Shown here piece by piece: positions 23,083 to 61,293 of a stretch of DNA of 64,000 bases. A program made the position numbers and the translations under genes. The stretch is from contig NZ_KB895390.1 in NCBI RefSeq assembly GCF_000374825.1, forward strand, positions 1 to 64,000. Direction: 5' to 3'. The notes below the pieces were generated by a model, which saw nothing but the letters and a program-made list of their open reading frames with translations, did no database searches and had not been told where the DNA came from. Position 1 is the stretch's first letter; every line of letters starts with the position of its first letter. Origin of the DNA: Paenibacillus sanguinis 2301083 = DSM 16941 (GTDB lineage: Bacteria; Bacillota; Bacilli; Paenibacillales; Paenibacillaceae).

Positions 23083-23087
23083 ATCTA

Positions 23088-24402: not shown

Positions 24403-24406
24403 GCCA

Positions 24407-25588: not shown

Positions 25589-25606
25589 CAAGAGGAGAAC
25601 GTGCCA

Positions 25607-42255: not shown

Positions 42256-45200
42256 TGAGAGAACCGGCTTAGAAATTGCCGTCATCGGTATGTCTGGACG
42301 TTTTCCTAAAGCGAAGAACATTCAGGAGTTTTGGGAAAATCTACGGAGGGGTGTAGACGCCCTATCGACATTTACCGATGAGGAGTTGCTGGAGTTCGGG
42401 GTTGATCCCAAACTCCTCAACCACCCCGACTACGTGAAGAAAAAGGGCAGCCTCGATGCTATCGAAGAGTTTGACGCTTCATTTTTTGGCTACACCCCAA
42501 AGGAAGCGAGTTACATGGACCCGCAGTTCAGACTCTTCCATGAGATTAGCTACGAAGCGCTTGAAGACGCGGGCTATGCCAACGAGACATATAAAGGCAG
42601 AATCGGTCTCTACGCCGGAAATACCCAGAACCTTTTCTGGATGGGGCACCTGCTTCCTCATATGCAGTCACCGAACGACCAATTTGAGATCGTCAGCCTC
42701 AACGACAGTAACACGTTCAGTACACGTGTGGCATATAAGTTGAACTTGAGAGGTCCAGCGTTGACCGTGCAGACAGCTTGTTCAACCTCGCTGGTTGCGA
42801 TCCACCTAGCCAGCCAAGCGCTGATCGCAGGTGAGTGCAACATGGCACTGGCAGGTGGGGCTTCTATCGTGGTTCCACTTAAAAATGGTTACTTGTACGA
42901 AGAGGGAATGCTGTTGTCAAAGAGTGGAGCTTGCCGCGCATTTGATGAAAAGGCAGACGGACTTGTGTTTGGTGATGGGGCAGGGTGTGTCCTATTGAAG
43001 ATGCTCGACGACGCGATTCGAGACGGTGACCACATTTATGCGGTGATCAAAGGAACTGCGATTAACAACGATGGCAACCTCAAGGCGGGCTACACTGCAC
43101 CATCACCAAAAGGGCAGATGATTGCCATTCGTTCCGCCCATCATGTTGCCGAAATTAATCCTGAAACGATCACGTACGTCGAGACACACGGAGCGGGATC
43201 AACCCTCGGTGACCCAATTGAGTTTGAAGGTCTGAAACTCGCTTTCAATTCCGTCAAAAAGGGATTTTGCGCTTTGGGATCAGTTAAGACCAATACAGGT
43301 CACCTCAACCAAGCTGCAGGCGTCACCGGATTCATCAAGACGGTGCTCTCTTTGTATCACAAAGAACTGGTACCGGCTCTTCATTTTAAGAAGGCGAATT
43401 CAAAAATTGACTTTGAGAATAGCCCATTTTACGTAAACACCGAACTTAAACGGTGGGAAAGAACGGGGAACACGCCATTACGTGCGGGTGTGAGTGCCTT
43501 TGGAATCGGCGGAACAAATGCGCACGTCGTACTTGAAGAAGCCCCGTCACGTCAGCCATCGGGACAAGGCAGAGGAGCCCATCTTATAACGCTTTCTGCT
43601 CAATCGGATGTATCACTTCAGTTCATGACATCCGAGTTGGCCGATTTCTTGGAATTGAAGGCGGACGTGAATCTAGCGGACGTTGCGTATACGCTTCAAA
43701 CGGGGCGCAACTTGTTCAACTATCGTCGTCATCTAGTGGTTACGAACGTGCAGGAAGCGGTAGAGGCTTTACGTTCAGAGACATCGGACAAGCGTAAGGT
43801 ACATACCCATTTTTCCCGCGAAAAGAACCGTCCAGTCGTCTTCCTGTTCCCTGGTCAAGGGTCGCAGTACGTCAACATGGGCCGAGACTTGTATAAGCAA
43901 GAGGTTGTATTTCGCACTGAACTCGACCGCTGTTTCGCGATTCTCAATCATTTAGGATGTTCACACCTGCAAAATGTGTTATATCCAACTGGAGATGTTG
44001 CGGCCGCAGAGGAAGAGATATGTAAGACGGAGAATGCTCAACCGCTAATTTTTGCATTTGAATACGCACTCGCCAAACTGTTGCTGAATATAGGAATTCA
44101 ACCTCACGCTATGATCGGGTATAGCTTTGGTGAGTACGTGGCAGCCTGCCTCGCAGACGTGTTTACATTAGAAGACGCGTTAAAGTTAATCGTTGCTCGT
44201 GGTAAATTGATGCAACGTGTTACAGAGGGAGCGATGCTTTCGATTCCGCTGTCCGAATCAAAAGTACTGCCTTATCTGCCCCCTGATGTATCTCTTGCAG
44301 TCGACAACGGAACGTCCTGTATTGTAGCAGGGACCATCGACTCAATTGATGCGTTTGAACGTCGCATGAAGGAAGAACATGTGCTCTGCATGCGTGTGAA
44401 AACTTCACTCGCAGGGCACTCCCTTTTGATGGACGAAATTTTGGAACCTTTTGAACAGTTGGTGCGAAGTGTTGGGCTTCGCAAGCCACAACGTCCTTAT
44501 ATTTCCGACCTCACCGGACGCTGGATCACCGATCAGGAAGCGACTGATCCGATGTATTGGATTCGCCATTTGCGCGAGACGGTACGCTTCGCAGCGGGGG
44601 TAGAAGAACTGGCGAAGACTTCGAATCTCGTCTTCTTGGAAGTAGGACCAGGCCGGAACCTGTCCAATCTTATTGGGCGTTTCGTGGACGAAAAGAAAGG
44701 TCAAAACATCGTCGATCTCATCCGTAATGCACAACGTCAAGTAGCCGACAGCGAACACCTTTTGTCAAAGCTCGGTTGGCTATGGGCATATGGGGTGACG
44801 ATAGATTGGAATTCCTTTTATAAAGGTTCAGTCCGACATCGACTCAATTTGCCAACGTATGCGTTTGACCGCAAACGTTACTGGGTCGACGGCTCTGCTG
44901 CTGAATCGTCAAGGGTATTGCGTTCTCACTCAAATATTGGGAAAAGTAAAGACACGACAAGCTGGGGGTATATCCCGACGTGGAAACGCACAGCTGACCT
45001 GCAAGAAGAGGCGAATAATGAACGAGTAAGCTGGCTGTTTCTTACGAGTCAGGAAAGTATAGGCCAATCCCTTGCCGAACACTTCGTTAAGCGGGGAGAA
45101 ACGGTCGTGACGGTTGAGTTAGGGACGTGGTTTTCTGTGCACAACGATCAGAGAATCGTGTTGAATCCAGCAAATGCACAAGACTATGATGCGGTTTTAA

Positions 45201-48142
45201 AACATCTGAACCAGTCTGAAAAGCGACTCTACAAAATTGTCCATGCGTGGAGCCTGTCGGAAGAGACTAGAACCATGACTCCAGAAGTCGTACATGATGC
45301 ACAGACTCTTGGTTTTTACAGTCTATTGTATCTAGCTCAAGCGATGAATCGTGTCCGTACAAAGCATGACTACGAAATCACCATCCTCACCGACAACCTC
45401 TATGTGGTTAACGGAGATGAGGTGATTCAGGCGGAGAAAGCGACACTGCTCGGCGGCGTCACGGTCATCCCGCAAGAGTATCCAGCCATTCGTTGCCGCA
45501 GCATAGACATCGACCATGTCAACCGATCTGAATGGCAAGAGAAAAAGCTCCTCGATCAACTGGTAAGAGAGCTGTCTTCACCTGTACGAGACCTGTTGGT
45601 TGCGTATCGCAGAGGAGCACGATTGGTGCGGTCGTTGGAGCCTATAACACTCCATTACCCACAAGAAAAAGCTTTGCAGCTGCGCGAAGGGGGTGTCTAT
45701 TTAATCACCGGCGGTCTTGGTGCGATTGGTCTCTTGTTTGCGGAGTATCTGATCACCCACTGGCATGCAAAACTCATAATCACAGGCCGTACCCCATTCC
45801 CTACCAAACAGGAGTGGGATGATTATCTGGTGACTCATTCAACAGAAGATGCGACCTCCCAAAAAATTCGACGTCTGCAAGCGATGTTAGAAAATGGCGG
45901 AGACGTACTCGTTATGGAAGCGAATGTCGCCGATGAAGAACGGATGCGAATCGTGGTACAGGAGGCAGAAGAACACTTTGGGACTCTGAATGGCGTGATC
46001 CATGCGGCTGGCATCGCCGGAAAAAACTCGTTCATCTCGATTCAAGAAACAATACCTTCCCATGTTGAGGAGCAATTCCAAGCGAAAGTGTACGGGACTC
46101 TCTCGCTGGAAAACGTGTTGCGTGGTAAAGAGCTCGACTTCTGTATGCTGATGTCCTCTTTGACTTCCGTATTAGGTGGTCTGGGGCACATCGTCTACTC
46201 CGCGGCCAATTTGTTCGTCGATCATTACGTTCATCGTCATAATTCAGAAGGAGTCGTACGCTGGATCAGCGTGAATTGGGATTTCTGGCTTTTTGAAAAG
46301 GACGAAACGAAGCAAGGCGCGTACTTTGGCAAAAGTGCAACAGAGTTTGCGATGACACCAGAGGAGGGACTAACAGTTCTGGAAGCTCTGCTCAACGGTT
46401 GTGAAGACAGTCAAATTCTGATATCGACAGCTGATCTGGAAGCACGACTCGATCAATGGATTCAGGTGGAACCCCGCGATGCCGAGATTGCATACATACC
46501 GCATACGGTAGGCCACGCTCGTCCATCGCTTTCGAACCCATATGTCGAGGCGCGTGACGAACTTGAACAACAGATTGCGTCGATTTGGGAAAATGTTCTC
46601 GGCTTTCAGAAGATCGGGATCAAAGATGATTTTCTTGAGCTGGGAGGTGACTCTGTCAAGGTTGTCTCTGTGATTTCAGCGATCCACAAAAAAGTTAATG
46701 CTGATATCCCACTCCATGAGTTTTTTGAATGTTCGACGATTGAAAAGCTGGCAGATTTCATACGCCAAAACCGTAAGGCTGAGTTATACGAAGAGATCCA
46801 ACCGATAGCCAAGAAGGAGTTTTACCCGCTGTCTTCTGCTCAACGTCGCCTGTTTATCCTGAACCAATTCGACAGCACCAGTACGAATTACAACACACCG
46901 CTGGCGATGCGTCTAGAAGGGAATTTTGACCGTTCACGAATGGAGGCAGCCTTTGCAAAATTGATCCAACGTCATGAAGCACTCCGTACCTCTTTTGAAA
47001 TTTTTGAGGGCCAACCTGTTCAGAGGGTGTATGACAAAGTTAATTTTGAGATCATGACGTCCACAGCCGATGAGGCGGAAATAGATGACGTCATCGCAGC
47101 TTTCATCCGTCCATTTGATCTGGGAGTAGCTCCGTTGCTACGAGCTCAGTTGGTACAGACGGGGGTAGATGTACACTTTTTACTGGTCGATTTACATCAT
47201 CTCTGCTCAGACGGCGTGACCATCGAAATTGTCAAGCGCGAGATCGCTGAATTGTATCAAGGCCTCGAGTTGCCGCCATTGCGATTGCAATATCGCGATT
47301 TTGCTGCATGGCAAACGGAGCAACTGAAGAGCGACAAGATCAAAAAGCAGGAGCAGTATTGGTTGAAACGTTTCGCGGGAGAGGTGCCGATGCTGAACCT
47401 GCCGACTGATTTCCCACGCCCGCTGGTTCAATCCTATACGGGGGAACGCTTGAAATTTGAACTCGATGCCTCAACTGTCCTCGGTCTGAAAGAGGTGGCG
47501 CAACGTCAGGGTGCGACGCTGTATATGTCTCTGCTTGGCATTTATAACATCCTTCTCGCAAAATACTCGATGCAGGAAGATGTAATCATCGGATCACCAA
47601 TCGCGGGGCGAACGCGCCCCGACCTGCAAAGGATCGCTGGTATTTTTGTGAACATGCTCGCGATCTGGAATCGTCCGACAGCCGATAAGACATTTACCGA
47701 ACTACTCGGAGAAGTGAAGAAACACGCACTTGATGCTTACGAAAATCAAGAGTATCCATTCGAAGATCTCGTGGCACGTTTGCAACTCGAGCGTGTGACG
47801 AACCGCAACCCACTGTTCGAAACGGTGTTGGTTATGCAAAATATGGAAGAGGGCAAGGTCGAACTCGAAGGTTTGCGTCTCACACCTTATGACATATCCA
47901 TGAAGACCTCAATCTTCGATCTTTACCTGCAAGCGGTGGAAAGCGGAGAGACCGTCACGCTTTGGCTTGATTTCAAAACTGCACTGTTCAAGCGCCAGAC
48001 CGTTGAAAAAATGATACAACGCTTCGTCGAAATCGCAGCTCAAGTCGCAGAAAATCCAAACCGACGTATCGGAGACATCTCGTTTATTCACGATCTAGTA
48101 GATGCAAAGAGTTCCGTTCCGTCGATCGAGTTTGATTTTTAA
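42248..48142 (+). CDS. PKS2: KS-AT-KR-ACP-C
   Basis: About 1964 aa. KS has Cys178 (QTACSTS), His314 in HGAGST (in place of HGTGT) and the third His in TNTGH. The AT has GYSFGE (Ser626) and LAGH (721-724) where malonyl-specific ATs have GHSxGE and HAFH, so a different extender is likely, plausibly hydroxymalonyl-ACP. KR follows (TGGLGAIG; SSLTSVLGG...YSAAN), then ACP (LGGDS, Ser1469) and a C-terminal condensation domain with intact LHHLCSDG (His1650/1651). The chosen GTG at 42248 overlaps the PKS1 stop and has GAGGTGG upstream; the frame opens 135 bp earlier inside PKS1. The C domain should link the polyketide to the amino acid of the next protein. Confidence 0.93.
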   Translation: MSDERTGLEIAVIGMSGRFPKAKNIQEFWENLRRGVDALSTFTDEELLEFGVDPKLLNHPDYVKKKGSLDAIEEFDASFFGYTPKEASYMDPQFRLFHEISYEALEDAGYANETYKGRIGLYAGNTQNLFWMGHLLPHMQSPNDQFEIVSLNDSNTFSTRVAYKLNLRGPALTVQTACSTSLVAIHLASQALIAGECNMALAGGASIVVPLKNGYLYEEGMLLSKSGACRAFDEKADGLVFGDGAGCVLLKMLDDAIRDGDHIYAVIKGTAINNDGNLKAGYTAPSPKGQMIAIRSAHHVAEINPETITYVETHGAGSTLGDPIEFEGLKLAFNSVKKGFCALGSVKTNTGHLNQAAGVTGFIKTVLSLYHKELVPALHFKKANSKIDFENSPFYVNTELKRWERTGNTPLRAGVSAFGIGGTNAHVVLEEAPSRQPSGQGRGAHLITLSAQSDVSLQFMTSELADFLELKADVNLADVAYTLQTGRNLFNYRRHLVVTNVQEAVEALRSETSDKRKVHTHFSREKNRPVVFLFPGQGSQYVNMGRDLYKQEVVFRTELDRCFAILNHLGCSHLQNVLYPTGDVAAAEEEICKTENAQPLIFAFEYALAKLLLNIGIQPHAMIGYSFGEYVAACLADVFTLEDALKLIVARGKLMQRVTEGAMLSIPLSESKVLPYLPPDVSLAVDNGTSCIVAGTIDSIDAFERRMKEEHVLCMRVKTSLAGHSLLMDEILEPFEQLVRSVGLRKPQRPYISDLTGRWITDQEATDPMYWIRHLRETVRFAAGVEELAKTSNLVFLEVGPGRNLSNLIGRFVDEKKGQNIVDLIRNAQRQVADSEHLLSKLGWLWAYGVTIDWNSFYKGSVRHRLNLPTYAFDRKRYWVDGSAAESSRVLRSHSNIGKSKDTTSWGYIPTWKRTADLQEEANNERVSWLFLTSQESIGQSLAEHFVKRGETVVTVELGTWFSVHNDQRIVLNPANAQDYDAVLKHLNQSEKRLYKIVHAWSLSEETRTMTPEVVHDAQTLGFYSLLYLAQAMNRVRTKHDYEITILTDNLYVVNGDEVIQAEKATLLGGVTVIPQEYPAIRCRSIDIDHVNRSEWQEKKLLDQLVRELSSPVRDLLVAYRRGARLVRSLEPITLHYPQEKALQLREGGVYLITGGLGAIGLLFAEYLITHWHAKLIITGRTPFPTKQEWDDYLVTHSTEDATSQKIRRLQAMLENGGDVLVMEANVADEERMRIVVQEAEEHFGTLNGVIHAAGIAGKNSFISIQETIPSHVEEQFQAKVYGTLSLENVLRGKELDFCMLMSSLTSVLGGLGHIVYSAANLFVDHYVHRHNSEGVVRWISVNWDFWLFEKDETKQGAYFGKSATEFAMTPEEGLTVLEALLNGCEDSQILISTADLEARLDQWIQVEPRDAEIAYIPHTVGHARPSLSNPYVEARDELEQQIASIWENVLGFQKIGIKDDFLELGGDSVKVVSVISAIHKKVNADIPLHEFFECSTIEKLADFIRQNRKAELYEEIQPIAKKEFYPLSSAQRRLFILNQFDSTSTNYNTPLAMRLEGNFDRSRMEAAFAKLIQRHEALRTSFEIFEGQPVQRVYDKVNFEIMTSTADEAEIDDVIAAFIRPFDLGVAPLLRAQLVQTGVDVHFLLVDLHHLCSDGVTIEIVKREIAELYQGLELPPLRLQYRDFAAWQTEQLKSDKIKKQEQYWLKRFAGEVPMLNLPTDFPRPLVQSYTGERLKFELDASTVLGLKEVAQRQGATLYMSLLGIYNILLAKYSMQEDVIIGSPIAGRTRPDLQRIAGIFVNMLAIWNRPTADKTFTELLGEVKKHALDAYENQEYPFEDLVARLQLERVTNRNPLFETVLVMQNMEEGKVELEGLRLTPYDISMKTSIFDLYLQAVESGETVTLWLDFKTALFKRQTVEKMIQRFVEIAAQVAENPNRRIGDISFIHDLVDAKSSVPSIEFDF

Positions 48143-48155
48143 GGAGGAAAAGCAC

Positions 48156-51100
48156 ATGTCCGACCATGTTTTGTCCGGTGAACTTGTATTGGCTGCCAAC
48201 CAACACACTCGTGAAGAAGTGTATTGGATCGAAAAATTATCGGGGGAAGTCGCAGCTGCGGCTTTCCCAACCGACCATAACGCTTTCCAGAACGGAGATC
48301 AAACTAGATGTCTGCGTTTTGAGTTGACCGGATCGCTGTACGAAAAGGTCTCTGTGCTTTCCAAAGGGTCTGATCACACTTTGCATATCATTTTGGCCGC
48401 AGCTTTGAATTTGTTGCTAGCGAAGTACACCGGCGAGCGGGACCTTGTTGTCGGTACTCCAATTTACCGTCCTGAGACGGACGGTCAGTTCCTGAACACG
48501 GCCTTGCCACTTCGAACACGAATCGATACGGGGAATTCGTTCCGCGATCTGCTCCTGCAGGTGCGCTCAACGATGCTCGAAGCCGTCGAGCATCAGGAAT
48601 ATCCGATGGAAGTCCTGCTCACAAAATTGAATTGCCCGCATTTGTATGAGGTCTCACTGGTGATGGAAAACATCCAATTGCCACAACATCTTGATCGTTT
48701 GCCGGCAGTGCTGAATTTCGTGTTTATACATCGTAACGGTGTTGTAGAGGCGACGGTGGAGTACAATAACAGCCGCTATCAAGAGGAAAGTATCGAGCGT
48801 ATCATTAGCCACTTCATCACGTTGCTGGAAAAAGTGCTTGGCGATATGAACGCAGACCTCGCCACTATTTCGTTGTTAAGTCAAGCGGAAGAGGAGGCTC
48901 TGGTAGTTGCTTACAACGCGAAAACAACCGAGTATCCTGCAGACAAGACTGTTGCTCAACTCTTTGAGCAACAAGTGGAAAATAATTATGAAAATCTAGC
49001 AGTAGTGGCGGGTGATGTCTCGCTGACCTACCGAGAATTGAATGCCAATGCCAACCGTCTTGCTCGCGTGTTGCAAAGTCGCGGTGTCAGTGCGGACTCG
49101 CTTGTCGCACTGATCGTTGAGAACTCTGCAGATACCATTGTGGGCATGCTGGCTGTATTAAAAGCAGGCGGTGCTTATGTGCCTATTGATCCAGACAACC
49201 CAATTGAACGAAAAAAATTCTTGCTCGAAGATAGCCAAGCGGTCGTTATCTTAACACAACAGCATTTGCTGACAACTCAAGCAGAACTGTTTGAAGGTGT
49301 CGAATCGGAGCGTGTGTTGCTGATTGATGACCTCGATGTGTATGCGGAGCAAGACGAGACCAACCTTGCACCTGTCGCAGGACCATCGAACCTTGCGTAC
49401 GTTATTTATACTTCGGGCACCACAGGTAAACCAAAAGGGGTGTTGATCGAGAATAAGGGAGCAGTCAACTACGTAATGTTTGCTGCGAAACATTACGTTC
49501 AAGGGGAAAAGGTTGATTTTCCACTGTTCACATCCATCGCCTTTGATCTCACTGTTACTTCCATCTTCACTCCGCTCCTGACCGGCAATGCTGTTATTGT
49601 CTACCAAGATGAACACAAAGAACGACTCTTGGAGCGAGTCTTGGAAGATAATCGTGTAGGTGTTGTGAAAGCAACACCTTCTCATTTGAAGTTAATTAAG
49701 CACCGTGATTGGTCGAACTCCTCCGTAAAGAGACTGGTTGTGGGCGGAGAAGACCTCAAAGCTGACCTCGCCCGCGAAGTGATCGTGGCTTTTGGCGGGA
49801 ACATTAAAATCTATAACGAGTACGGTCCTACCGAGACGGTCGTCGGTTGTATGATTCACCGCTTTGACGAGTCATCGGATACACGTGATTCCGTGCCGAT
49901 CGGTGTTCCTGCTGACAACACGGACATTTTTCTGCTCGATGCGGATCGAAATCCCGTGCCAGTGGGTGTAGTTGGCGAGATATTCATCGGTGGTGATGGC
50001 GTGGCGCGTGGCTACCGCAACCGTCCTGAATTGACGGCAGAACGGTTTGTTACTCTACCTCAAGGACGCGTCTACAGGTCGGGCGATCTCGCCAGGTTCT
50101 TGCCGTCTGGGCAACTAGAATATTTGGGCCGAGCAGACAACCAAGTTAAAATTAACGGTTACCGTATTGAACTCGGTGAAATTGAGACTCAGCTTCTACA
50201 TCTGCATGAAAGGTACATACCTAAAGACTCAGTTTTTCACGATATTACGCAATACGCACAACCGGAAGGGGTGACCTATTGCACACGTTGCGTGTTGCCC
50301 TCTAACTATCCAAAGATTACGTTTGACGACCATGGTGTCTGCTCCGCTTGCCGAGACTATGAAACGTATCAACCACATACGGAAAAGTATTTCAAGACGA
50401 TGGACGACTTCCGCGAACTCGTCGATGCAAATAAAGGTACCGATTATGATGTTCTGTTGCTCTTCTCGGGTGGCAAGGATTCCACCTATGTCCTATACCG
50501 CTTGGTGAACATGGGATATAAGGTGCTCACGTTTACCTTCGACAACGGTTTTATTTCCGAAGGTGCCTTTACCAACATCAAAAACATCACGAAGCGACTC
50601 GGTGTCGATCACCGCGTCCTAACGGCGGGCCAGATGAAATCAGTCTTCGTGAAGTCGCTGAAGACGTTTAGCAACGTTTGTAACGGCTGTTGGAATGCGA
50701 TCAACGGACTTGGGGCTCAACTTGCTGAAGAAACCGGATGCAAAGTTATCATCTCCGGCTTATCGCGTGGTCAAATTTTTGACATGCGTCTATGGGGACT
50801 ATTCCAACTCGGCATCTTTGACGAGCAGGAGATCGAAGAGAAACTGCTGTTGTTTCGCAAGGGCTTCCATACCCGGGACAACATCTTCTCTAAGACACTC
50901 AATGTGGAATTAGATGGAAATTTTGTGGAATCGTTGTACTTCGTGGACTTCTTTCGTTATGACAATACACCGACTCACCAGATTCGTGAGTATCTGTATG
51001 AACAAGGTTGGGTGCCGCCGAAGGACACAGGATTTTGCTCGTCCAACTGTCGTATCAATGATATCGGCATATATGTCCATCTGATGAATGAGGGTTATCA

Positions 51101-51812
51101 CAACTACGCAGCCCCATCGTCTTGGGATATCCGATTTGGCATCATTACCCGAGAAGAAGGTTTGCAGGAAATCACTTACAAAGGTGAAGCCAACCATGTT
51201 GAGCGTGTACTAAAGGATATCGGCTACTTCCAAGCACCGAAGATCGAAGACGTCGTTGTGGTGCCAATCCGTGAAGGCAGTGGGCAGGAAAAACTCTGTG
51301 CTTACATTGTCGCTAAAGATGAACTCGAAGCGGATTGGCTTCGCGTGACGTTAGCATTAGAGTTGCCATCGTATATGGTGCCAACCTACTTTGTGCAACT
51401 GCCCAGCCTACCACTGACAGCCAATGGTAAAGTAGACATCAAAGCACTACCAATCCCAGTCGTGACAGGTACAGCAAAGGTCGAGTATGTCACACCTTCC
51501 AACGATGTAGAAGTCGAAATCCGGAAGATCTGGGCCACCGTACTTAGCATAGATGAGGAGAAAATCGGAGTAAACGATCGCTTTTTCGACTTGGGTGGCG
51601 ATTCATACAACATGGTTCAAGTGAACATCCGAGTCAATGAGATGTTCTCCAAAGCAATTCCTGTCCTAACGATGTACAATTACCCGACGATTCATTCGCT
51701 TGCGGAGTATCTACGTTTGGAAGAAGGGATTAAGGTACGGGAACTGTCGGATGAACAGTTGGATATGTTGGACGTTTCATTAAGTTTGTTTGGGGAGGTA
51801 CACCATGACTAA
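48156..51812 (+). CDS. NRPS2: half C - A(Asn) interrupted by PP-loop amidotransferase-like domain - T
   Basis: About 1218 aa. The first ~245 residues match only the C-terminal half of a condensation domain (LNLLLAKYTGERDLVVGTPI) and lack the HHxxxDG half. The A domain has YTSGTTGKPKG near 418 and FDLTVTSIF near 463. Pocket code DLTKVGEVGK is nearly the known Asn code DLTKLGEVGK. Between core motifs a8 (NGYRIELGEIE, ~667) and a9 (LPSYMVP, ~1070), ~320 foreign residues are inserted. The insert has CTRC (C709, C712), CSAC and the ATP pyrophosphatase P-loop SGGKDS (771-776), as in N-acetyl sugar amidotransferases. The a10 Lys (NGKVDIKALP) and T domain (GGDS, Ser1150) follow. AAGGAGG precedes the ATG by eight bases. 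Confidence 0.92.
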   Translation: MSDHVLSGELVLAANQHTREEVYWIEKLSGEVAAAAFPTDHNAFQNGDQTRCLRFELTGSLYEKVSVLSKGSDHTLHIILAAALNLLLAKYTGERDLVVGTPIYRPETDGQFLNTALPLRTRIDTGNSFRDLLLQVRSTMLEAVEHQEYPMEVLLTKLNCPHLYEVSLVMENIQLPQHLDRLPAVLNFVFIHRNGVVEATVEYNNSRYQEESIERIISHFITLLEKVLGDMNADLATISLLSQAEEEALVVAYNAKTTEYPADKTVAQLFEQQVENNYENLAVVAGDVSLTYRELNANANRLARVLQSRGVSADSLVALIVENSADTIVGMLAVLKAGGAYVPIDPDNPIERKKFLLEDSQAVVILTQQHLLTTQAELFEGVESERVLLIDDLDVYAEQDETNLAPVAGPSNLAYVIYTSGTTGKPKGVLIENKGAVNYVMFAAKHYVQGEKVDFPLFTSIAFDLTVTSIFTPLLTGNAVIVYQDEHKERLLERVLEDNRVGVVKATPSHLKLIKHRDWSNSSVKRLVVGGEDLKADLAREVIVAFGGNIKIYNEYGPTETVVGCMIHRFDESSDTRDSVPIGVPADNTDIFLLDADRNPVPVGVVGEIFIGGDGVARGYRNRPELTAERFVTLPQGRVYRSGDLARFLPSGQLEYLGRADNQVKINGYRIELGEIETQLLHLHERYIPKDSVFHDITQYAQPEGVTYCTRCVLPSNYPKITFDDHGVCSACRDYETYQPHTEKYFKTMDDFRELVDANKGTDYDVLLLFSGGKDSTYVLYRLVNMGYKVLTFTFDNGFISEGAFTNIKNITKRLGVDHRVLTAGQMKSVFVKSLKTFSNVCNGCWNAINGLGAQLAEETGCKVIISGLSRGQIFDMRLWGLFQLGIFDEQEIEEKLLLFRKGFHTRDNIFSKTLNVELDGNFVESLYFVDFFRYDNTPTHQIREYLYEQGWVPPKDTGFCSSNCRINDIGIYVHLMNEGYHNYAAPSSWDIRFGIITREEGLQEITYKGEANHVERVLKDIGYFQAPKIEDVVVVPIREGSGQEKLCAYIVAKDELEADWLRVTLALELPSYMVPTYFVQLPSLPLTANGKVDIKALPIPVVTGTAKVEYVTPSNDVEVEIRKIWATVLSIDEEKIGVNDRFFDLGGDSYNMVQVNIRVNEMFSKAIPVLTMYNYPTIHSLAEYLRLEEGIKVRELSDEQLDMLDVSLSLFGEVHHD
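50220..51185 (+). other. PP-loop ATPase / amidotransferase-like domain inserted in the A domain
   Basis: The insert begins shortly before CTRCVLPSNYPKITFDDHGV, the typical opening of N-acetyl sugar amidotransferases (WbpG-type). It goes on with CSAC, SGGKDS, FTFDNGF, CNGC and FCSSNC. Such enzymes adenylate an amide or acid and attack it with ammonia. Two pairs of Cys could hold zinc. It lies between a8 and a9, the place where methyltransferases and oxidases are known to interrupt A domains. Confidence 0.85.
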
Positions 51813-54800
51813 GAAGGTTGAACCCGCTCGTACTGGTCTTGAGATCGCCGTTATCGGTATGGCTTGCCGTTTTCCGGGTGCTTCTGACTTGGCAGGGTTT
51901 TGGAACAACTTAAAAAACGGAGTTGAATCGATCACATTTTTCTCTGAAGAAGAATTGCTCGCGGCGGGCGTAGACGAGTCGTTGGTCAAACACCCCGATT
52001 ACGTCCCCGCCAAGGGAGTTCTCGAACGCGCGGATTGGTTCGACAACCAATTTTTCGAATACTCACCACGCGAGGCTGCCCTTTTGGATCCACAGATTCG
52101 CATTTTTCATGAAGTCGCTTGGGAAGCGATTGAACATGCTGGATATAACCCAGACTTGGAGGGAGCGATCGGCCTCTACTCGGGAGCTTCCCCGAATGTC
52201 TTTTGGCAAATAACGGCATCAATGAACGGCATGGAGTCAAGCACCGAGCAGTTTGCGGTTGGACAGTTGGCCAACCGCGACTATCTGAATACGCGGGTCT
52301 CCTACAAACTCAATTTGCAGGGGCCTAGTGTTTCTGTGAATACGGCTTGTTCGACATCGCTTGCGGCCATTCACATGGCATCCCGGGCGCTGCTTACAGG
52401 GGAATGCCGTATCGCTTTGGCTGGTGGGGTTTCCATTAGCACGCCGCAGAAGGATGGATATCTATACACGGAAGGCATGATTTTGTCTCCAGATGGACAT
52501 TGCCGCCCGTTTGATGCAGCGGCTCAAGGGTCGGTCCCTGGTGAGGGGGTAGGCGTTGTCATGCTGAAGCCATTGAAGGCTGCTTTGGCTGATGGAGATA
52601 CGATCTATGCGGTTATCAAAGGGTCGGCTTCAAACAATGACGGTGTTCGCAAGGTTGGGTATACGGCCCCAAGTATTGAGGGACAGGCAGAAGTCATCCG
52701 TGCTTCGCACCGGATTGCTCGCGTTGAACCTGAAACGATCTCCTACATTGAAGCACATGGTACGGGGACTGTGATGGGTGATCCGATCGAATTGGAGGCG
52801 TTAAAAGTTGCATTTGGGACGAAAGCACGACCTGGTATTAAAATTGGTTCGGTTAAATCGAACATCGGGCATCTAGATGCGGCTGCAGGGGTGGCAGGTT
52901 TTATTAAAACGGTCCTATCATTGCAACATGGTTATCTGCCGCCGAGCCTACATTTTGAAAAACAGAATCCACGTACAGACCTGGCGAAAGGTACGTTTGT
53001 TGTAAACGCTCGGTTGAACGAGTGGAAAGAGGAGAGTGAACCGCTTCGGGCTGGGGTCAGTTCGTTTGGTATCGGCGGGACGAACGTGCATGTAATCTTA
53101 GAACAAGCACCACAAGTCGAGAGCGCCCCTTCTCAACGTTCTCAGCAGATCCTGATACTGTCCGCGATGACACCTAGGGCGTTGGAGAAGCAAACGGAGA
53201 ACCTACTGAACTTTTTCAAACACAACTCGCAGGTATCACTTGCGGATATCGCCTACACGCTGAAAGTTGGGCGTCGGGAGATGAAGCATCGTCGTAGCTT
53301 GGTTGTATCGTCTGTAGAAGAAGCCGTGCGCGAGTTGGAATCGCTGGTCAATCCAAGTAAACAAAGCGCCCGTGCTCATTTGGCAGTTTCTCAAGATCGG
53401 CGTCCCTTGTACTTCTTGTTCCCAGGTCAAGGATCTCAGTACATACAAATGGGACGCGAACTTTACGAACAGGAACCTATTTTCCGAGATCATCTAAATG
53501 AGTGTTTAGATAAGTTACAAGTGCTGACGGGTGAAACCTTCGCCTGCATTCTCTATCCAGTGAAAGAGGAGACGGAAGTTTCAAAAAGCCTGCTTAGCCA
53601 GACGCAGTATGCACAACCGTTGATTTTTGCCTTCGAATACAGCCTCGCCAAGTTGCTAATGTACTGGGGATTGCAGCCATCGGCGATGATAGGATATAGC
53701 TTAGGGGAATATGCGGCAGCTTGTCTCGCAGGCGTCTTTTCCCTGGACGACGCGCTCAAACTGATCATTACGCGTGGGAAACTGATGCAATCTGTGCCAT
53801 CGGGTTCGATGTTAAGCGTGCCAATGAGGGAGCAGGAACTGCAACCGTTGTTGACCCCGGATGTGTCTCTGGCGGTGGACAACGGAAATTCGTGTATTGT
53901 TGCAGGTTCTATACAGGCAATCGAGGCATTCGAAACGAAAATGAGAGACCGTCGCTTGCTGTGCATGCGGGTCAATTCCCCACTAGCTGGACATTCTCTA
54001 TTGATGGATGGCATTTTGGGAGAATTCGAAAAAGTCGTGCGTAGCGTGACTTTCCACAAACCGCAATTACCTTATATCTCGGACATCAGCAGCGGGTGGA
54101 TCACGGTTGAAGAAGCGACGTCGGTTGAGTATTGGGTACGTCATATTCGCGACACGGTACGGTTTGCCGATGGTGTAGAGGAATTGTTGAAACAGCCAAA
54201 CGCGCTGTTTATCGAGGTAGGTCCAGGTCGAGATCTATCCGTGTTGACTCGTCGTTTCCTCAAGCCAGATTCAACGCAACAAGTTTTCGATCTTATACGG
54301 ATTCCAGCGCGAGAGGTGTCGGATCACTTCTACTTTTTGTACAAAGTTGCGGGTCTCTGGGCGCATGGCGTCAAATTAAATTGGAAGGCGTTCTACAATG
54401 GCGAAAGACGGATTCGGATCGCACTTCCAACCTACCCATTTGAACAACGACATTTTCCAGCAAACGTTCCTCACCCAACCCAAGTACTGCAAGCCACACG
54501 CATGGGTCTGAACGGAGAGGATGCAACGGCAGTGGAGACAGGCAAAAAGCCAGTCCGCTATCATATCCCATCTTGGAAACGCTCCCTACAGGGTGCAGTT
54601 GATATAACGCCGGCTACATGGTGGTTCTTTGAAGATGATTTGGGATTCGGGGATCGCCTAATCACAGCTTTGAGAGCGGAAGGTCATCATGTCGTACGTA
54701 TTCGATCTGGAGTAACGTTTCAACGTGAATCCAATACGTTCACCCTCAACCCAGAGCAAAGTGTTCAGTATGAGCAGTTGGTGGCGGACTTGAAAGCAGA

Positions 54801-57720
54801 CGGTCTGCTTCCGAATCGTATTGTACACCTCTGGAACTATGATCGACCGGATGAAATCGAACCGAGTGTCAGGCGAATGGAAAGTCTGCTGGCCCGTGGT
54901 TTTTACAGTTTGCTCTACTTGACACAAGCGCTTGGCAAGTATCGCGTGGAAACGCCAATCACTCTGTCGGTAATCAGCAGCTTCATGCAAGACGTGCAAG
55001 GCGGTGATCTCTGCGATCCGGAAAAGGCAACTTTGCTGGGTCCAGTCAAGGTAATTCCACTTGAATACTCGAATATAAACTGTATATCCATCGATCTCCG
55101 TGTCCCAGAAACCCAAGAACAGGAAGCGAAGCAAATTCATCAAATTCTCGACGAAGTGAGGTCTGAAGGTACGGACCAAATCGTCGCCTATCGCGGGGGG
55201 TACCGTCTGGTACAGACTTTTGAAGAGGTACACGTGGGAAAAGGCTCAACTTCTTTACCACCTGTACGAGAAAATGGTGTCTACCTAATTACCGGCGGAT
55301 TGGGTGACATGGGTTTAGCTTTTGCGGAGGTACTGGCGAGCGCTGCTCCCGTTAAGCTCATCTTGATCGGGCGTTCAGCTCCAAGTGTTGAAAAACAAGA
55401 ATCCCTGCGACAATTGGAGTCGAAGGGGAGTGAGGTGCTCGTTCTGCAAGCCGATTTAACGGATAAAGCACAACTACAAACGGCGATCGAACAAGTACGA
55501 GCCCGTTTCACGACCCTGCATGGTGTTATTCATGCAGCCGGTCTTGCCGATGGTGCGATGATCCAGCGAAGGACCGTTGAAAATACCGAAAACATTCTCG
55601 CTCCGAAAATTCGTGGGACCTTGTTGCTGAATGAAGTGTTGAGTGGAATGGAACCGGACTTTTTCCTGCTGTGCTCCTCGATGGCTTCTGTCCAAGGTGG
55701 GTTCGGACAAGTAGCCTATACTGGTGCCAACGCTTTCCTCGACGCATTTGCACATTATAAGACTGCTCGTGAGAATGGCGTGACACTCTCCGTAAACTGG
55801 GATCGTTGGCGTAGTATCGGGATTGCACGAAACGTTGAAGAGTTGCATCGCCGATTAACAGGTGAAGTACTCGAGGGAGGCATTACCCGTGTAGAAGGTC
55901 AGAAGGCGTTCGCTAAGTTGCTTGAAACCACGGTCGCTCAGATTGCTGTAGCCATTGAAAGACCACAGCTTCAAGTGCCCAAGGGAGAACTCTCGGACGA
56001 TATCTTGCAAGCAGGTGTGACAATTGCAGCAGATATTCACGCCCGCCCAGACTTGAGCACAGAGTACGTGGCACCTGCTGATGAAGTCGAGCAACGATTG
56101 TCTTGTCTTTGGCAGCAATTCTTCGGCTTGGATCGTATCGGAAGACTGGATGATTTTCTAGAACTTGGCGGTGATTCGCTTAAAGCAATCATTGTAATCT
56201 CAAAAATCCAAAAAGAGTTTGGTGTGCGACTACCGATTGCAGGCTTTTTTGAATCCTCATCTCTGGCTGGGGTCTCAGAGCGCATTAAGGAATCGATAGA
56301 ATATCAACAGGTGGGTCATACGAATGAAACGACCAAGGAGTCTGTGTGTGCGGGCAACGAGCTCGACACATCGCTGATCACATTTGAGGAAAGTACGATA
56401 GAACGTTTGGTTAGCGGAGATACCAACATTCGAGGGATTTATCCTTTGACTCCGATGCAACAAGTGATTTTGACGCATAATCTGTTCTCAGCAGGTACCG
56501 GTTTGGACACGGGCATGTTCGCTTGCCGAGTAGTTGGAGAACTACACATCGACCAGTTCCGTGAGGCATGGCAATGGGCAATGAACCGTCATTCCATTTT
56601 GCGTACCACGTTCCGTTGGCGTCGTCTTGAATACCCTGTTCAATTGGTATATGAAAATGCGGAACTACCGTGGACAGAATATGATTGGACGGAGCTAACT
56701 AGAGAAGAACAAACCTCGGCTTATAAGGAGTTTGTAGACTCCGAATGTAAGAGAGGATTTAAAGTGAGTAATTTCCCGTTAATGCGAATTCATATGATCA
56801 AGGTTGACAGTGCTTATCACTTCGTATGGAGTTTCCAAAACTCACTTATTGACGGGTGGGCTATTTCTTTAGTCTTTAAAGAAGTGCTTAGCTATTACCA
56901 ATCAAAGGTAAGGGCTGATAGTAGGGAGGGAAATATCTCCTTGCCTCCTGCACCACCTTTCTCCTCATATATCCGTTGGCTTCATGAGCAAGATTCGGAG
57001 CTCGCGAGCGACTACTGGAAAAGATGTTTCAGTGGATACACACCGACTCTCAAGGAACTTGGTACGGCAGAGCAGCAGACACAGCAAACCGTCTCTCCGG
57101 CAAAGCGTGAACTCCTGCTCACAGAAGAGGAGACTAACCAACTGAACATTCGAGCGAAAGAACTTGGTCTGACCCTTAGCACGATTGCCATCGGAGCTTG
57201 GGCGCTCTGCCAAGCCGAGCAATCCGACACTGACGATGTGCTAGTCAGTCTGATTACTTCAGGACGTACGGCGAATCTCGAAGGACTCGACGTGATGGTT
57301 GGATTATTCACGAATTCCTTGCCTGTTCGTATCCAAGTCAGAGGCGAAAGGGACCTGAATCAGCAGTTCAAGTGCCTACAGGACCAACTGGTAGAAATGA
57401 TGAAATACGAGCATGTAAGTCCACATCAGATTGCCAAATGGACAGGTGTACCTTACAACGTGCTACAACAAGCGGTCTATGAACGAACGCTTGTATATCT
57501 AAACTACCCCGTGGACATCTCGCAGGAGTTATCGGGTGGAGATCTCACCTTTTCTGACCTGCTGTCCATAGGTCAATTGAACGTACCATTAAGAATGTAT
57601 GCTCAGCCAGGTGAGCGTTTTATTTTGACGCTTACTTACGATAAAGCAAGATACGAAGTGCAACAAATTCAAATCTTGCTTGAACGGATGCGACACTTCC
57701 TAGTCAACTCGATCGTCTAA
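51805..57720 (+). CDS. PKS3: KS-AT-KR-ACP-C (C lacks HH motif)
   Basis: About 1971 aa. KS has Cys182 (NTACSTS), HGTGT and NIGH. AT has GYSLGE (Ser632) and LAGH ending at His730, the same unusual pair as PKS2, so it should use the same non-malonyl unit. KR (TGGLGDMG; SSMASVQGG...YTGANAF) and ACP (LGGDS, Ser1458) follow. The C-terminal condensation domain has QNSLIDG at 1678-1684 where HHxxxDG is normal; both His are replaced, including the catalytic one. The domain is otherwise full length and keeps the Asp-Gly. ATG at 51805 has GGGGAGGT upstream and overlaps the NRPS2 stop by eight bases. It is followed by 31 bp and the exporter genes. Confidence 0.93.
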   Translation: MTKKVEPARTGLEIAVIGMACRFPGASDLAGFWNNLKNGVESITFFSEEELLAAGVDESLVKHPDYVPAKGVLERADWFDNQFFEYSPREAALLDPQIRIFHEVAWEAIEHAGYNPDLEGAIGLYSGASPNVFWQITASMNGMESSTEQFAVGQLANRDYLNTRVSYKLNLQGPSVSVNTACSTSLAAIHMASRALLTGECRIALAGGVSISTPQKDGYLYTEGMILSPDGHCRPFDAAAQGSVPGEGVGVVMLKPLKAALADGDTIYAVIKGSASNNDGVRKVGYTAPSIEGQAEVIRASHRIARVEPETISYIEAHGTGTVMGDPIELEALKVAFGTKARPGIKIGSVKSNIGHLDAAAGVAGFIKTVLSLQHGYLPPSLHFEKQNPRTDLAKGTFVVNARLNEWKEESEPLRAGVSSFGIGGTNVHVILEQAPQVESAPSQRSQQILILSAMTPRALEKQTENLLNFFKHNSQVSLADIAYTLKVGRREMKHRRSLVVSSVEEAVRELESLVNPSKQSARAHLAVSQDRRPLYFLFPGQGSQYIQMGRELYEQEPIFRDHLNECLDKLQVLTGETFACILYPVKEETEVSKSLLSQTQYAQPLIFAFEYSLAKLLMYWGLQPSAMIGYSLGEYAAACLAGVFSLDDALKLIITRGKLMQSVPSGSMLSVPMREQELQPLLTPDVSLAVDNGNSCIVAGSIQAIEAFETKMRDRRLLCMRVNSPLAGHSLLMDGILGEFEKVVRSVTFHKPQLPYISDISSGWITVEEATSVEYWVRHIRDTVRFADGVEELLKQPNALFIEVGPGRDLSVLTRRFLKPDSTQQVFDLIRIPAREVSDHFYFLYKVAGLWAHGVKLNWKAFYNGERRIRIALPTYPFEQRHFPANVPHPTQVLQATRMGLNGEDATAVETGKKPVRYHIPSWKRSLQGAVDITPATWWFFEDDLGFGDRLITALRAEGHHVVRIRSGVTFQRESNTFTLNPEQSVQYEQLVADLKADGLLPNRIVHLWNYDRPDEIEPSVRRMESLLARGFYSLLYLTQALGKYRVETPITLSVISSFMQDVQGGDLCDPEKATLLGPVKVIPLEYSNINCISIDLRVPETQEQEAKQIHQILDEVRSEGTDQIVAYRGGYRLVQTFEEVHVGKGSTSLPPVRENGVYLITGGLGDMGLAFAEVLASAAPVKLILIGRSAPSVEKQESLRQLESKGSEVLVLQADLTDKAQLQTAIEQVRARFTTLHGVIHAAGLADGAMIQRRTVENTENILAPKIRGTLLLNEVLSGMEPDFFLLCSSMASVQGGFGQVAYTGANAFLDAFAHYKTARENGVTLSVNWDRWRSIGIARNVEELHRRLTGEVLEGGITRVEGQKAFAKLLETTVAQIAVAIERPQLQVPKGELSDDILQAGVTIAADIHARPDLSTEYVAPADEVEQRLSCLWQQFFGLDRIGRLDDFLELGGDSLKAIIVISKIQKEFGVRLPIAGFFESSSLAGVSERIKESIEYQQVGHTNETTKESVCAGNELDTSLITFEESTIERLVSGDTNIRGIYPLTPMQQVILTHNLFSAGTGLDTGMFACRVVGELHIDQFREAWQWAMNRHSILRTTFRWRRLEYPVQLVYENAELPWTEYDWTELTREEQTSAYKEFVDSECKRGFKVSNFPLMRIHMIKVDSAYHFVWSFQNSLIDGWAISLVFKEVLSYYQSKVRADSREGNISLPPAPPFSSYIRWLHEQDSELASDYWKRCFSGYTPTLKELGTAEQQTQQTVSPAKRELLLTEEETNQLNIRAKELGLTLSTIAIGAWALCQAEQSDTDDVLVSLITSGRTANLEGLDVMVGLFTNSLPVRIQVRGERDLNQQFKCLQDQLVEMMKYEHVSPHQIAKWTGVPYNVLQQAVYERTLVYLNYPVDISQELSGGDLTFSDLLSIGQLNVPLRMYAQPGERFILTLTYDKARYEVQQIQILLERMRHFLVNSIV

Positions 57721-57751
57721 CACCTATTTTGAAAGGAGTCGATCCGAATTC

Positions 57752-59527
57752 ATGACTCAAAACAATAAGAGTTCTACATTACGAAAAACGATCAGTGGCA
57801 TATACCAATTCATCCACCCCTATAAGGGATGGGTGATCGCGGCCTTTACCGCCTCCGTTATTGCTGCGATGTGTGATCTTGCTGGTGTCTACCTGATCAA
57901 GCAAATGATTGATAATGCTCTAGCAAGTGAAACACAGCGACTTTCTATAATCGTTGTTCTCGTTGTGATCATGGTATTGGCAGGATTTGGTGCTAACTAT
58001 ATTCTTACATATGCTACTGGTCGATTTGGGACAAAAGCGGTGGGGGATATGCGTAATGCCCTCGCTGCACGATTGGGCGAACTTCCAGTGTCTGATGTCG
58101 AAAGCGAACGCTCAGGTGACCTTGTTTCACGCGTTACCAATGACGCTAGCGCTATTCAATCGTTTATCTCCCAGCGCTTTACCAATCTCATTTATGCACC
58201 GATCATCGTTGTGATCGCCCTCATTTATTTGGGAAGCTTGAACTGGAAATTGACCTTGGTTAGCTTTGCAGCTACACCAATCATGATGTATATCGCCAAC
58301 CTGATCTCGAAGCCGATTCAAGAGCAGTCTTCGAACTACTACGGGGCGCTTGCAGAAGCGAATTCTGTAGCGCAAGAAGCTATTGCGGGCAATTCCGTCA
58401 CGAAGGCATATAATTTGCAAAAACCGATGTATGCAAAGGTGGAAGGTTTCTATTACAAAGCGATGCGCAATGGCTTCAAGATTGCCAAGCAAGAATCACT
58501 GATGCGTCCGTCAGTCGTTATGATGTATGAATTGCCAATTGTGCTTTGTACGATCTATGGCGGTTATCTGGCTGTTAGCGAGTTGTTAGGGGCTGGAGCA
58601 TTGGTAGCCTTCTTGCAAATGTTGCGTATGCTTGTCAATCAAACAATTCAGATTCCTGATCTGTTAGCCAACACTCGTTCGGTCGCCGGTGCTGTTGCAC
58701 GGATCACTGACATTCTGGAAGCACCGACTGAGCGTACAGATGGTCGTGTCTTTCCCCCAGTAGAAAAAAATCTGGTGCTGGTTGAGGATGTTAGTTTCGG
58801 TTACGAAAAGGACAAGAACATCATCTCTGGAGTCTCTTTTACATTGACCAAAGGCAAAACAGTTGCCCTAGTTGGTTCTTCCGGTAGTGGCAAATCCACC
58901 ATCTTGAACTTATTGCTCAGTTTCCATGAGCCACAAAAGGGGACGATTCGTGTTCACGGTCACGATTTAAAGGAGTGGAATTTGAAAGCCTTGCGTGATC
59001 AGTTTGCTGTCGTTACACAGGACACGTTCTTGTTCCCAGGTACAATTGAGGACAACATCCGTTTGGGTAACCCCAATGCGGATTTTAATCAAATTGTGGA
59101 GGCTTCGAAAATTGCAGGAGCCTACTCTTTTATTCAAGATCTCCCAGAAGGGTTTCAAACTCAAGTTGGTGAGCGCGGTACTGTTCTGTCGGGTGGTCAG
59201 AAACAGCGTATTTCCATTGCGCGAGTTGCGTTGAAAAAAGCCAGCATTCTTTTGCTCGATGAAGCAACTTCTGCACTTGATAACGAATCCGAAGCCCAAG
59301 TCCAGCAAGCGCTTGAGGTGTTTTCGAAGGATCATGCAACGCTGGTCATCGCCCACCGCCTCTCCACAATTAAGATGGCAGACGAGATTCTCATGCTTGA
59401 CCATGGGCGAATTGCTGAGCGTGGTACACATCAAGAATTGATGGAGCAAGACGGACTCTACCGCCAGTACTACCTGAGACAATCGAATGATATTCTGGCG
59501 AATGAGGAGGATTTGAAGTATGTTTAA
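57752..59527 (+). CDS. ABC exporter half-subunit 1
   Basis: A 591-aa fused membrane-ATPase protein of the MsbA/LmrA type. Six transmembrane helices fill the first ~320 residues. The nucleotide-binding domain has Walker A LVGSSGSGKST, signature LSGGQKQRISIAR, Walker B LLLDEATSALD and the H-loop AHRLST. It overlaps the next ABC gene by eight bases, so the two probably form a heterodimer. Placement inside the cluster, between PKS3 and NRPS3, points to export of the product or self-resistance. GGAG lies 13 bases before the ATG. Confidence 0.92.
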   Translation: MTQNNKSSTLRKTISGIYQFIHPYKGWVIAAFTASVIAAMCDLAGVYLIKQMIDNALASETQRLSIIVVLVVIMVLAGFGANYILTYATGRFGTKAVGDMRNALAARLGELPVSDVESERSGDLVSRVTNDASAIQSFISQRFTNLIYAPIIVVIALIYLGSLNWKLTLVSFAATPIMMYIANLISKPIQEQSSNYYGALAEANSVAQEAIAGNSVTKAYNLQKPMYAKVEGFYYKAMRNGFKIAKQESLMRPSVVMMYELPIVLCTIYGGYLAVSELLGAGALVAFLQMLRMLVNQTIQIPDLLANTRSVAGAVARITDILEAPTERTDGRVFPPVEKNLVLVEDVSFGYEKDKNIISGVSFTLTKGKTVALVGSSGSGKSTILNLLLSFHEPQKGTIRVHGHDLKEWNLKALRDQFAVVTQDTFLFPGTIEDNIRLGNPNADFNQIVEASKIAGAYSFIQDLPEGFQTQVGERGTVLSGGQKQRISIARVALKKASILLLDEATSALDNESEAQVQQALEVFSKDHATLVIAHRLSTIKMADEILMLDHGRIAERGTHQELMEQDGLYRQYYLRQSNDILANEEDLKYV

Positions 59528-61265: not shown

Positions 61266-61293
61266 CGATAACCGAAGGGAGAGACATGCCCTT

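Follow-up and report, generated by a model that had tools for sequence, protein, structure and literature searches.

What does a PP-loop domain do when it is lodged inside the adenylation (A) domain of a peptide synthetase? The question is raised by one module of a PKS-NRPS cluster in the window, by which we mean the whole 64,000-nucleotide stretch of Paenibacillus sanguinis DNA analyzed here. A sequence-only reading had described an Asn-type A domain split by such an insert, and had suggested that the insert converts the side-chain amide of Asn to an amidine or a nitrile, or makes Asn from Asp, on the synthetase.

Module architecture and gene context

The module is encoded by a single open frame of 1236 codons (48102-51812, + strand), and the residue numbers given here are counted from 48102, not from the ATG at 48156. 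That ATG, which the sequence-only reading had used, is the likely start, as a strong ribosome-binding site, TAAGGAGGAAAAGCAC, precedes it. The condensation (C) domain expected at the N terminus is present as its C-terminal lobe only, and lacks the HHxxxDG motif. The A-domain core motifs, said to be intact, were located at residues 436 (a3), 481 (a4), 572 (a5), 658 (a7), 676-695 (a8) and 1108 (a10), while a9 (LPSYMVP) was seen in the A-domain alignment. Aligned with an uninterrupted Asn-type A domain from the same cluster, the A domain stops after GEIETQLLHLH and restarts at QAPKIEDVVVV, which confirms the insertion between a8 and a9 and gives the insert about 341 residues instead of the ~320 first estimated. 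The binding pocket reads DLTKVGEVGK in the alignment, as had been reported, and we take this to be an Asn-type pocket by the specificity code.

The complete C domain that ends the preceding PKS protein probably acylates the residue of this module, and the next protein (KS-AT-KR-T-C), whose own C domain lacks HHxxxDG, would extend from the modified residue. The following NRPS protein contains an uninterrupted Asn-type A domain with the pocket DLTKIGEVGK. Coordinates are collected in Table 1.

Table 1. Features of the interrupted module and its surroundings in the window
Feature	Positions	Strand	Remarks
Rest of cluster in window	19656..61265	+	thioesterase, 3-hydroxyacyl-CoA DH, FkbH-like HAD protein, ACP, acyl-CoA DH, 4056-aa NRPS, two further PKS proteins, two ABC exporters
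Complete C domain, end of preceding PKS protein	46814..48094	+	HHLCSDG
Partial C - A(AMDH) - T module gene	48156..51812	+	1218 aa counted from ATG
C domain, C-terminal lobe only	48156..48905	+	profile positions 174-456 of 456
A domain through and beyond a8	48963..50207	+	pocket DLTKVGEVGK
AMDH insert, PP-loop amide-dehydratase-type domain	50208..51230	+	residues ~703-1043
Tetra-Cys site C727 C730 C747 C750	50280..50351	+	CTRC 727, CSAC 747
PP-loop SGGKDS	50466..50483	+	residues 789-794
CNGC, C860 and C863	50679..50690	+	Cys in 81/81; aligned with LarE CxxC
C983, third invariant Cys	51048..51050	+	Cys in 81/81
A domain resumption (AMP-binding_C)	51231..51431	+	includes a9 and a10
T domain	51516..51713	+	LGGDS at 1164, Ser1168
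Next protein, KS-AT-KR-T-C	51790..57720	+	
Next NRPS protein	61294..64000	+	two condensation-type domains, A, T; continues past window

Two other genomes carry the same gene within a syntenic cluster, with full-length identities of 91% and 88%, and the module is therefore not an assembly fusion of two genes, an objection that the sequence-only reading had raised against itself. Genome G033 holds a 92% identical module, and G359, of a different family, a 93% identical insert. With its PP-loop and family-invariant residues retained and the whole gene found in synteny elsewhere, it is hard to credit that the insert is inactive or an artifact of fusion, and nothing found speaks for either.

Family and distribution of the inserted domain

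The motifs CTRC, CSAC, SGGKDS and CNGC were found as described earlier (residues 727, 747, 789 and 860), and the insert contains the pattern CXXCXn[GN]XCXXC plus SGGXDS of the N-acetyl sugar amidotransferases (NASATs). The PP-loop and sugar amidotransferase kinship that the sequence-only reading had proposed, with a profile search as the check, is borne out: the best curated family is TIGR03573, which matches the insert at 133.2 bits (E 1.4e-38; 132.5 bits in a further run) and the whole protein at 128.8 bits (E 3.1e-37), and all three scores lie under the curated cut-off of 203.2 bits. QueC is the best Pfam family. A profile comparison with 10 stand-alone relatives spans the whole insert (E 1.6e-43), and these profiles together support a PP-loop fold.

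The claim that no A domain with such a fold had been described is mistaken. The aminomutase/amide dehydratase (AMDH) domains of albicidin AlbIV and cystobactamid CysH have been reported (PMC7966384, PMC8949500), along with numerous homologues in Asn-type A domains (PMC7966384). Our insert is 45% identical over residues 1-303 (42% in the multiple alignment) to the domain of locus L050, a stand-alone Asn-type A-T module of Xanthomonas albilineans that we take to be AlbIV from its organism, architecture and neighboring genes; these figures refer to L050. The window domain does not group with L050 in a tree made with FastTree only, in which the NASATs (10 rows, all Bacillota) form long branches.

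A scan yielded at least 374 confirmed relatives of the domain, not all of them AMDH. Among the best 80, the domain shares an open reading frame with a preceding A domain in 70, and a C domain, whole or partial, lies ahead in 60; pocket codes were obtained for 65 of these loci, and with the window's own, 65 of 66 aligned A domains have Asn-like pockets. The number of relatives and their gene arrangement suggest that the family is common and mostly in line. Of 81 family members, TIGR03573 matches 81 and QueC 76. Locus L024 was dropped (no usable ORF), L161 is listed but was omitted from the NASAT alignment, and conservation counts are from an 81-row alignment, an earlier one having included P. 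caui twice (L013, L045). Among 82 pattern matches in a scan of viral contigs there was no relative.

Proposed function and its alternatives

CysH dehydrates carrier-bound L-Asn to beta-cyano-L-alanine in vitro, seen as a loss of 18 Da from T-bound Asn that is absent without the AMDH domain (PMC7966384). Since the insert is akin to the AMDH domains of AlbIV and CysH, and CysH yields a nitrile, the nitrile is the best of the options offered by the sequence-only reading. By this analogy, we think it probable that the A domain loads L-Asn and that the insert, as an AMDH domain, dehydrates it to beta-cyano-L-alanine on the T domain.

Judging from its pocket, the A domain would adenylate L-Asn and load it onto T, after which the Asn thioester would visit the insert. 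If PP-loop chemistry is a guide, ATP bound at SGGKDS would activate the oxygen of the side-chain amide, an O-adenylyl imidate being the most likely activated form, and loss of AMP would leave beta-cyano-L-alanine on T; dehydration itself has been demonstrated for CysH only, and the AMDH literature consulted contains no experimental work on the ATP step. Gene order suggests that the upstream PKS protein would then use its complete C domain to join the chain to this residue and that the downstream KS would extend it. A nitrile-bearing residue is thus predicted in the product of an uncharacterized PKS-NRPS cluster.

No match was found in the genome to the TauD family, of which the hydroxylase CysJ is a member; because no TauD-type hydroxylase was found, the nitrile is expected over isoasparagine. 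WbpG works with HisH2/HisF2, an ammonia partner of the HisH/HisF type, and the genome has no spare HisF, only two His_biosynth proteins exceeding the cut-off, which are adjacent. Both absences favor plain dehydration.

The CysH domain also makes isoasparagine in vivo, weakly even without CysJ, so that aminomutation of T-bound L-Asn to L-isoasparagine must be weighed here too, but isoasparagine prevails with CysJ, deletion of CysJ gave more nitrile product, and no albicidin containing isoasparagine was known to the authors (PMC7966384). With a genome devoid of TauD-family matches, we regard an aminomutase as unlikely. An amidotransferase like WbpG or WbuX, using ammonia supplied by a partner to convert the side-chain amide to an amidine, would agree with TIGR03573 being the best curated family and with the alignment of stand-alone relatives over the whole insert, yet the score under the cut-off, the lack of a spare HisF and the nitrile product of the characterized AMDH make this very unlikely. 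Formation of Asn from Asp on the synthetase is likewise the less likely course, as the pocket is Asn-type and CysH did not load Asp (PMC7966384).

A candidate cofactor site

All 81 aligned AMDH domains have, besides the tetra-Cys site, a CxxC...C pattern, and this family-wide pattern is a new observation. The CSSNC singled out in the sequence-only reading is present at residue 979, but only its second cysteine, C983, is conserved (81/81, against 14/81 for C979). The CxxC lies 70-73 residues after the GG in 81 of 81 AMDH domains and 68-70 residues after it in 30 of 30 LarE sequences, and the two CxxC columns coincide in hhalign. When the profiles of AMDH and LarE were compared over their C-terminal halves, the local alignment was near chance (probability 2%, E 0.025) and ended before the third cysteine, and a global run gave no alignment. 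Structure 8cnz, presumably a [4Fe-4S] LarE, is the first PDB match of the family profile, and comes second (6.8e-6) to LpNASAT 8wex (2e-8) with a single-sequence query. Because NASATs align better with LarE (E 4.2e-15) than AMDH domains do (E 6.5e-12), the kinship to LarE is not peculiar to AMDH; the cysteines alone are.

The cysteine pattern supplies the AMDH family with a concrete candidate cofactor site. CysH protein was described as dark brown, and no Fe-S motif was recognized in it; the mechanism and metal of AMDH were left open in 2021 (PMC7966384). We put forward, as an evenly balanced proposal based on sequence, that AMDH domains are [4Fe-4S] PP-loop enzymes in which C860, C863 and C983 would hold the cluster and, as in LarE and TtuA, leave one iron free near the ATP site, with that iron serving as a Lewis acid in amide dehydration or rearrangement and not in sulfur transfer. 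If true, this would explain the brown color of CysH and give its dual chemistry a cofactor. The same CxxC...C, its alignment with LarE and the 8cnz match could instead point to a sulfur inserter like LarE or TtuA that makes a thioamide of Asn, but with the CysH domain, a member of this family, the mass change was -18 Da and not +16 (PMC7966384), and we consider such a function highly improbable.

Comparison with known systems

[4Fe-4S] LarE (TIGR00268) resembles the insert in its PP-loop, in a CxxC some 70 residues beyond it and in a further distant cysteine, which profile alignment did not place, its CXXC-C holding the cluster; the insert differs in substrate, in a tetra-Cys stretch with no aligned counterpart, and in scoring 28 bits against a cut-off of 150. 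The NASATs (TIGR03573; WbuX, WbpG, LpNASAT 8wex) share the tetra-Cys site, whose equivalent is a zinc site in LpNASAT, the PP-loop and whole-domain homology, whereas the insert falls under their curated cut-off and is not beside sugar genes, and a CxxC after the PP-loop is found in 4 of 11 NASAT family members examined and absent in 7. QueC/ToyM, ArtA/NitB, CalN and PesC are similar in driving amide-to-nitrile conversion with ATP, and to our knowledge none of them is built into an A domain. Of these enzymes, PesC resembles asparagine synthetase, and CalN is apparently kinase-derived (PMC13060819). Between a8 and a9 is the usual site for methyltransferase, oxidase and ketoreductase insertions in A domains (PMC11355689), which differ from this insert in both chemistry and fold.

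AlbIV and CysH are like the window module in that their domain interrupts an Asn-type A domain followed by T, with an SGGKD PP-loop and homology throughout. In those two systems the A-T module stands alone and supplies its residue for use elsewhere (CysB shuttles it in cystobactamid; PMC7966384), while the window module forms part of a PKS-NRPS line, bears a C lobe and comes from a genome without a TauD match. By sequence, the insert belongs with the AMDH domains, as a real but additional member of an already described group.

Identity of the interrupted module

The gene most likely starts at 48156, with TAAGGAGG in front, and its frame of 1236 codons is open throughout; residues are numbered in this frame, counted from 48102. 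An alignment of the cluster's four A domains places the insert at residues ~703-1043, between motifs a8 and a9, where the sequence-only reading had put it. The whole protein matches TIGR03573, the N-acetyl sugar amidotransferase (NASAT) model of NCBIfam, with E 3.1e-37 and 128.8 bits, below the curated cut-off of 203.2. Pocket residues, taken at positions equivalent to those of GrsA, read DLTKVGEVGK, the Asn code. In the next NRPS protein, whose A domain carries no insert, the pocket is DLTKIGEVGK; the 4056-aa protein has two A domains, with pockets DVWHYSLIDK and DLYDFSLVWK.

Domains of the module and other features discussed in the text
Feature	Location	Basis
Frame of the window gene	48102-51812 (+)	
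C domain, C-terminal lobe	residues 18-268	Pfam
AMP-binding	residues 288-638	Pfam
TIGR03573 match	residues 725-1025	NCBIfam
QueC	residues 784-854	Pfam, E 5.7e-7
AMP-binding_C	residues 1044-1110	Pfam
T domain	residues 1139-1204	Pfam
Border ahead of AMDH module	window 46814-48905	
Border ahead of next NRPS module	window 51790-64000	
451-aa cluster protein	window 20649-22004	no Pfam match
ABC-F-like protein, L007	7144-8961 (contig 67144-68961)	two ABC_tran, ABC_tran_Xtn
Stand-alone insert relative, L038	17378-18445 (-)	
AMDH in A domain of DARHLALMVK pocket, L101	3325-7500	
Formyltransferase-A(AMDH)-T protein, L094	33-4817	

The earlier statement that no A domain with such a fold had been described was wrong, as both AlbIV and CysH have been. 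AlbIV of albicidin, as described in PMC8949500, is a stand-alone A-T protein with a 342-residue SGGKD extension and a preference for Asn. The name AMDH (aminomutase/amide dehydratase) comes from PMC7966384. There CysH of cystobactamid is shown to load Asn, which then loses 18 Da, a loss not seen once the AMDH domain is removed; CysH also accepts Gln, beta-cyano-Ala and isoAsn, but neither Asp nor Glu. Within the cystobactamid cluster, deletion of this domain abolishes both the nitrile and the isoAsn forms, and deletion of the hydroxylase CysJ raises the nitrile form (PMC7966384). PMC8837603 mentions LapB, from lapcin, as another related gene that stands alone.

Relatives were gathered by an insert-alignment scan of genome contigs (at least 588 pattern matches, at least 374 confirmed), and the best 80 of these at least 374 were used; Paenibacillus caui aside, their identity to the window insert in the multiple alignment is 38-53%. 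The Xanthomonas albilineans locus (L050; 45% in the scan, 42% in the multiple alignment) encodes a stand-alone A-insert-T protein of 941 aa that adjoins a methyltransferase-like ORF and a large NRPS, the last A domain of which appears degenerate by eye; this locus fits the description of AlbIV. Judged by its sequence, the window module is a real, in-line, new member of the AMDH family, of a kind already known.

The cluster in other genomes

The insert was matched (E up to 0.001) in five of 59 genomes, its own included, strongly only in its own and in G033 (95%), which we take as P. caui. Among 398 genomes of the class, again including its own, there were 29 matches, strong only in its own and in G359, a member of another family (93%); the next best match is to a stand-alone protein of G352, at 31%. 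Over its full length the gene is 91% identical to the G033 copy and 88% to that of G359, and gene order is kept, with 18 of the 24 cluster genes tried matching in each. Among these 24, the thioesterase gene is absent from the G359 stretch, and the PPTase gene from the G033 contig; neither genome matches the radical-SAM gene or any of the four genes upstream. An origin of the gene as a fusion artefact is ruled out by the full-length gene in same-order clusters of both genomes.

At two borders a PKS protein ending in C is followed by a protein that itself begins with a C domain or a lobe of one: a complete C followed by a C-terminal lobe only ahead of the AMDH module, and a C without HHxxxDG followed by a complete C ahead of the next NRPS module. 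The half C of the AMDH module is present in G033 and G359 too. The 451-aa protein is ~30% identical to the proteins in the same place there, though its neighbours are 85-94% identical. At the cluster end, in all three genomes, sits an ABC-F-like protein without a membrane domain. If this protein gives ABC-F self-protection, the product may be directed at the ribosome.

Distribution of the AMDH domain

Survey profiles, built from the window domains and the AMDH alignment, were applied to the best 80 of the at least 374 relatives. A and AMDH share one ORF in 70 of these 80 loci and a C domain, at least partial, precedes AMDH in 60; two are cut by a contig end and eight have an ORF without an A domain. 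A KS domain occurs in the fetched DNA of five loci (L046, L048, L056, L094, L119) in addition to the window cluster and the two related clusters. Pockets are Asn-like in 65 of 66 aligned A domains (window plus 65 loci). TIGR03573 matches all 81 AMDH members, Pfam QueC 76 and the LarE model TIGR00268 74 (E up to 0.01). In the FastTree tree a branch with support 90 divides AMDH from the 10 stand-alone NASATs included; the window AMDH clusters with L045 (P. caui), L041, L046 and L047, and L050 pairs, apart from it, with a myxobacterial stand-alone module (support 100). Flavobacteriaceae account for eighteen rows, most of which are C-A(AMDH)-T proteins ~1390 aa long. We infer that these are probably the "massive multi-domain" Flavobacteria subcluster that adjoins WbpG in the QueC family in PMC13329287, a text from which the word "nonribosomal" is absent. 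The single L094 protein has a formyltransferase domain ahead of its A(AMDH)-T.

According to PMC7966384, all BLAST homologues of AMDH lie within Asn-type A domains, none tied to a known product. Eight loci without an A core (L059, L060, L069, L079, L096, L097, L099, L107; seven actinomycetes and one Pseudomonas) appear to run counter to the first statement. By eye, each ORF opens with an A-subdomain-like stretch, followed by AMDH; a weak partial C match lies behind AMDH in six, and directly upstream in all eight is an A-T ORF with a pocket of DARH type, not Asn type. From this arrangement, AMDH looks here to act in trans on another amino acid. The Paenibacillus plantarum locus L101, whose AMDH lies within an A domain of pocket DARHLALMVK, against 65 Asn-like ones, may connect the in-cis kind with the in-trans one. 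L038, a stand-alone relative of the insert (31-33% identity), lies inside an NRPS cluster. Judged from their sequences, other proteins encoded there are asparagine-synthetase-like, a KamA-like radical SAM protein, an AMP ligase and an acyl-CoA dehydrogenase. The 599-aa protein of L161 (G696) has a ~240-residue N-terminal extension before a NASAT-like domain.

Predicted reaction

Amidine formation would, following WbpG, need a HisH/HisF pair. The His_biosynth proteins over the cut-off in this genome number just two, and they are adjacent. No TauD match turned up in the whole genome (of 14 control genomes run alongside, only E. coli was positive), and in PMC7966384 isoAsn arises from CysH mainly after CysJ has hydroxylated Asn. 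For these two reasons our first guess is that the window AMDH would catalyze plain dehydration of Asn to beta-cyano-L-alanine, and the module is thus predicted to make a nitrile. The activation step could follow either of two precedents: adenylylation, to which ATP analogues point for PesC, an asparagine-synthetase-like nitrile former (PMC13060819), or phosphorylation, proposed by the albicidin authors as told in PMC7966384.

Conserved cysteines and a candidate cofactor site

C750, C860, C863 and C983 are kept in all 81 aligned AMDH domains, a set built on the best 80 of at least 374 relatives, and C727, C730 and C747 in 80. The window insert has two more cysteines, which are not conserved (C880 in 2 of 81, C979 in 14). 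The tetra-Cys stretch corresponds to the zinc-binding motif of LpNASAT (PMC10607449), and C860, C863 and C983 form a CxxC...C pattern. Against the PDB, the family profile finds the presumed LarE entry 8cnz first (E 1.6e-11), its CYNC aligned onto CNGC of the window insert, and LpNASAT 8wex after it (6e-10); with a single-sequence query 8wex ranks first.

T. maritima LarE, purified in air, is brownish and binds a [4Fe-4S] cluster through its CXXC-C residues, and CysH is dark brown, its authors having sought CxxCxxxC, not found it, and left the metal open (PMC9283937, PMC7966384). Taken together, the cysteine pattern, the LarE cluster and this colour make it plausible that AMDH holds a tri-Cys cluster like that of LarE. 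Three points speak against such a cluster: CysH was active after a purification that seems ordinary (PMC7966384), its colour could come from another metal, and the third ligand is left unplaced by the AMDH-LarE alignment. Our literature searches, which were of wider aim and covered mostly papers outside subscription, found no statement on an Fe-S site in AMDH; the only paper listed under the name of the domain was PMC7966384.

All 30 LarE sequences sampled (Bacillota, from the top of the search) have CxxC 68-70 residues past the PP-loop GG and a third Cys at 148-150; the AMDH CxxC lies at 70-73 in the 81 domains. By hhalign AMDH and LarE match with probability 97.5 and E 6.5e-12, CxxC over CxxC, stopping short of the third Cys. 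The C-terminal halves alone give a near-chance local match (probability 2%, E 0.025), which ends in a W..P stretch found ahead of the third Cys in either family, and no match in global alignment. An alignment of LarE with stand-alone NASATs also succeeds (E 4.2e-15), so this kinship is a general one and what tells is the cysteines: of 11 NASAT-family proteins examined, four have a CxxC past the PP-loop and seven do not. The putative tri-Cys cluster, comparable to that of LarE, would be a new and testable candidate cofactor site for the whole AMDH family.
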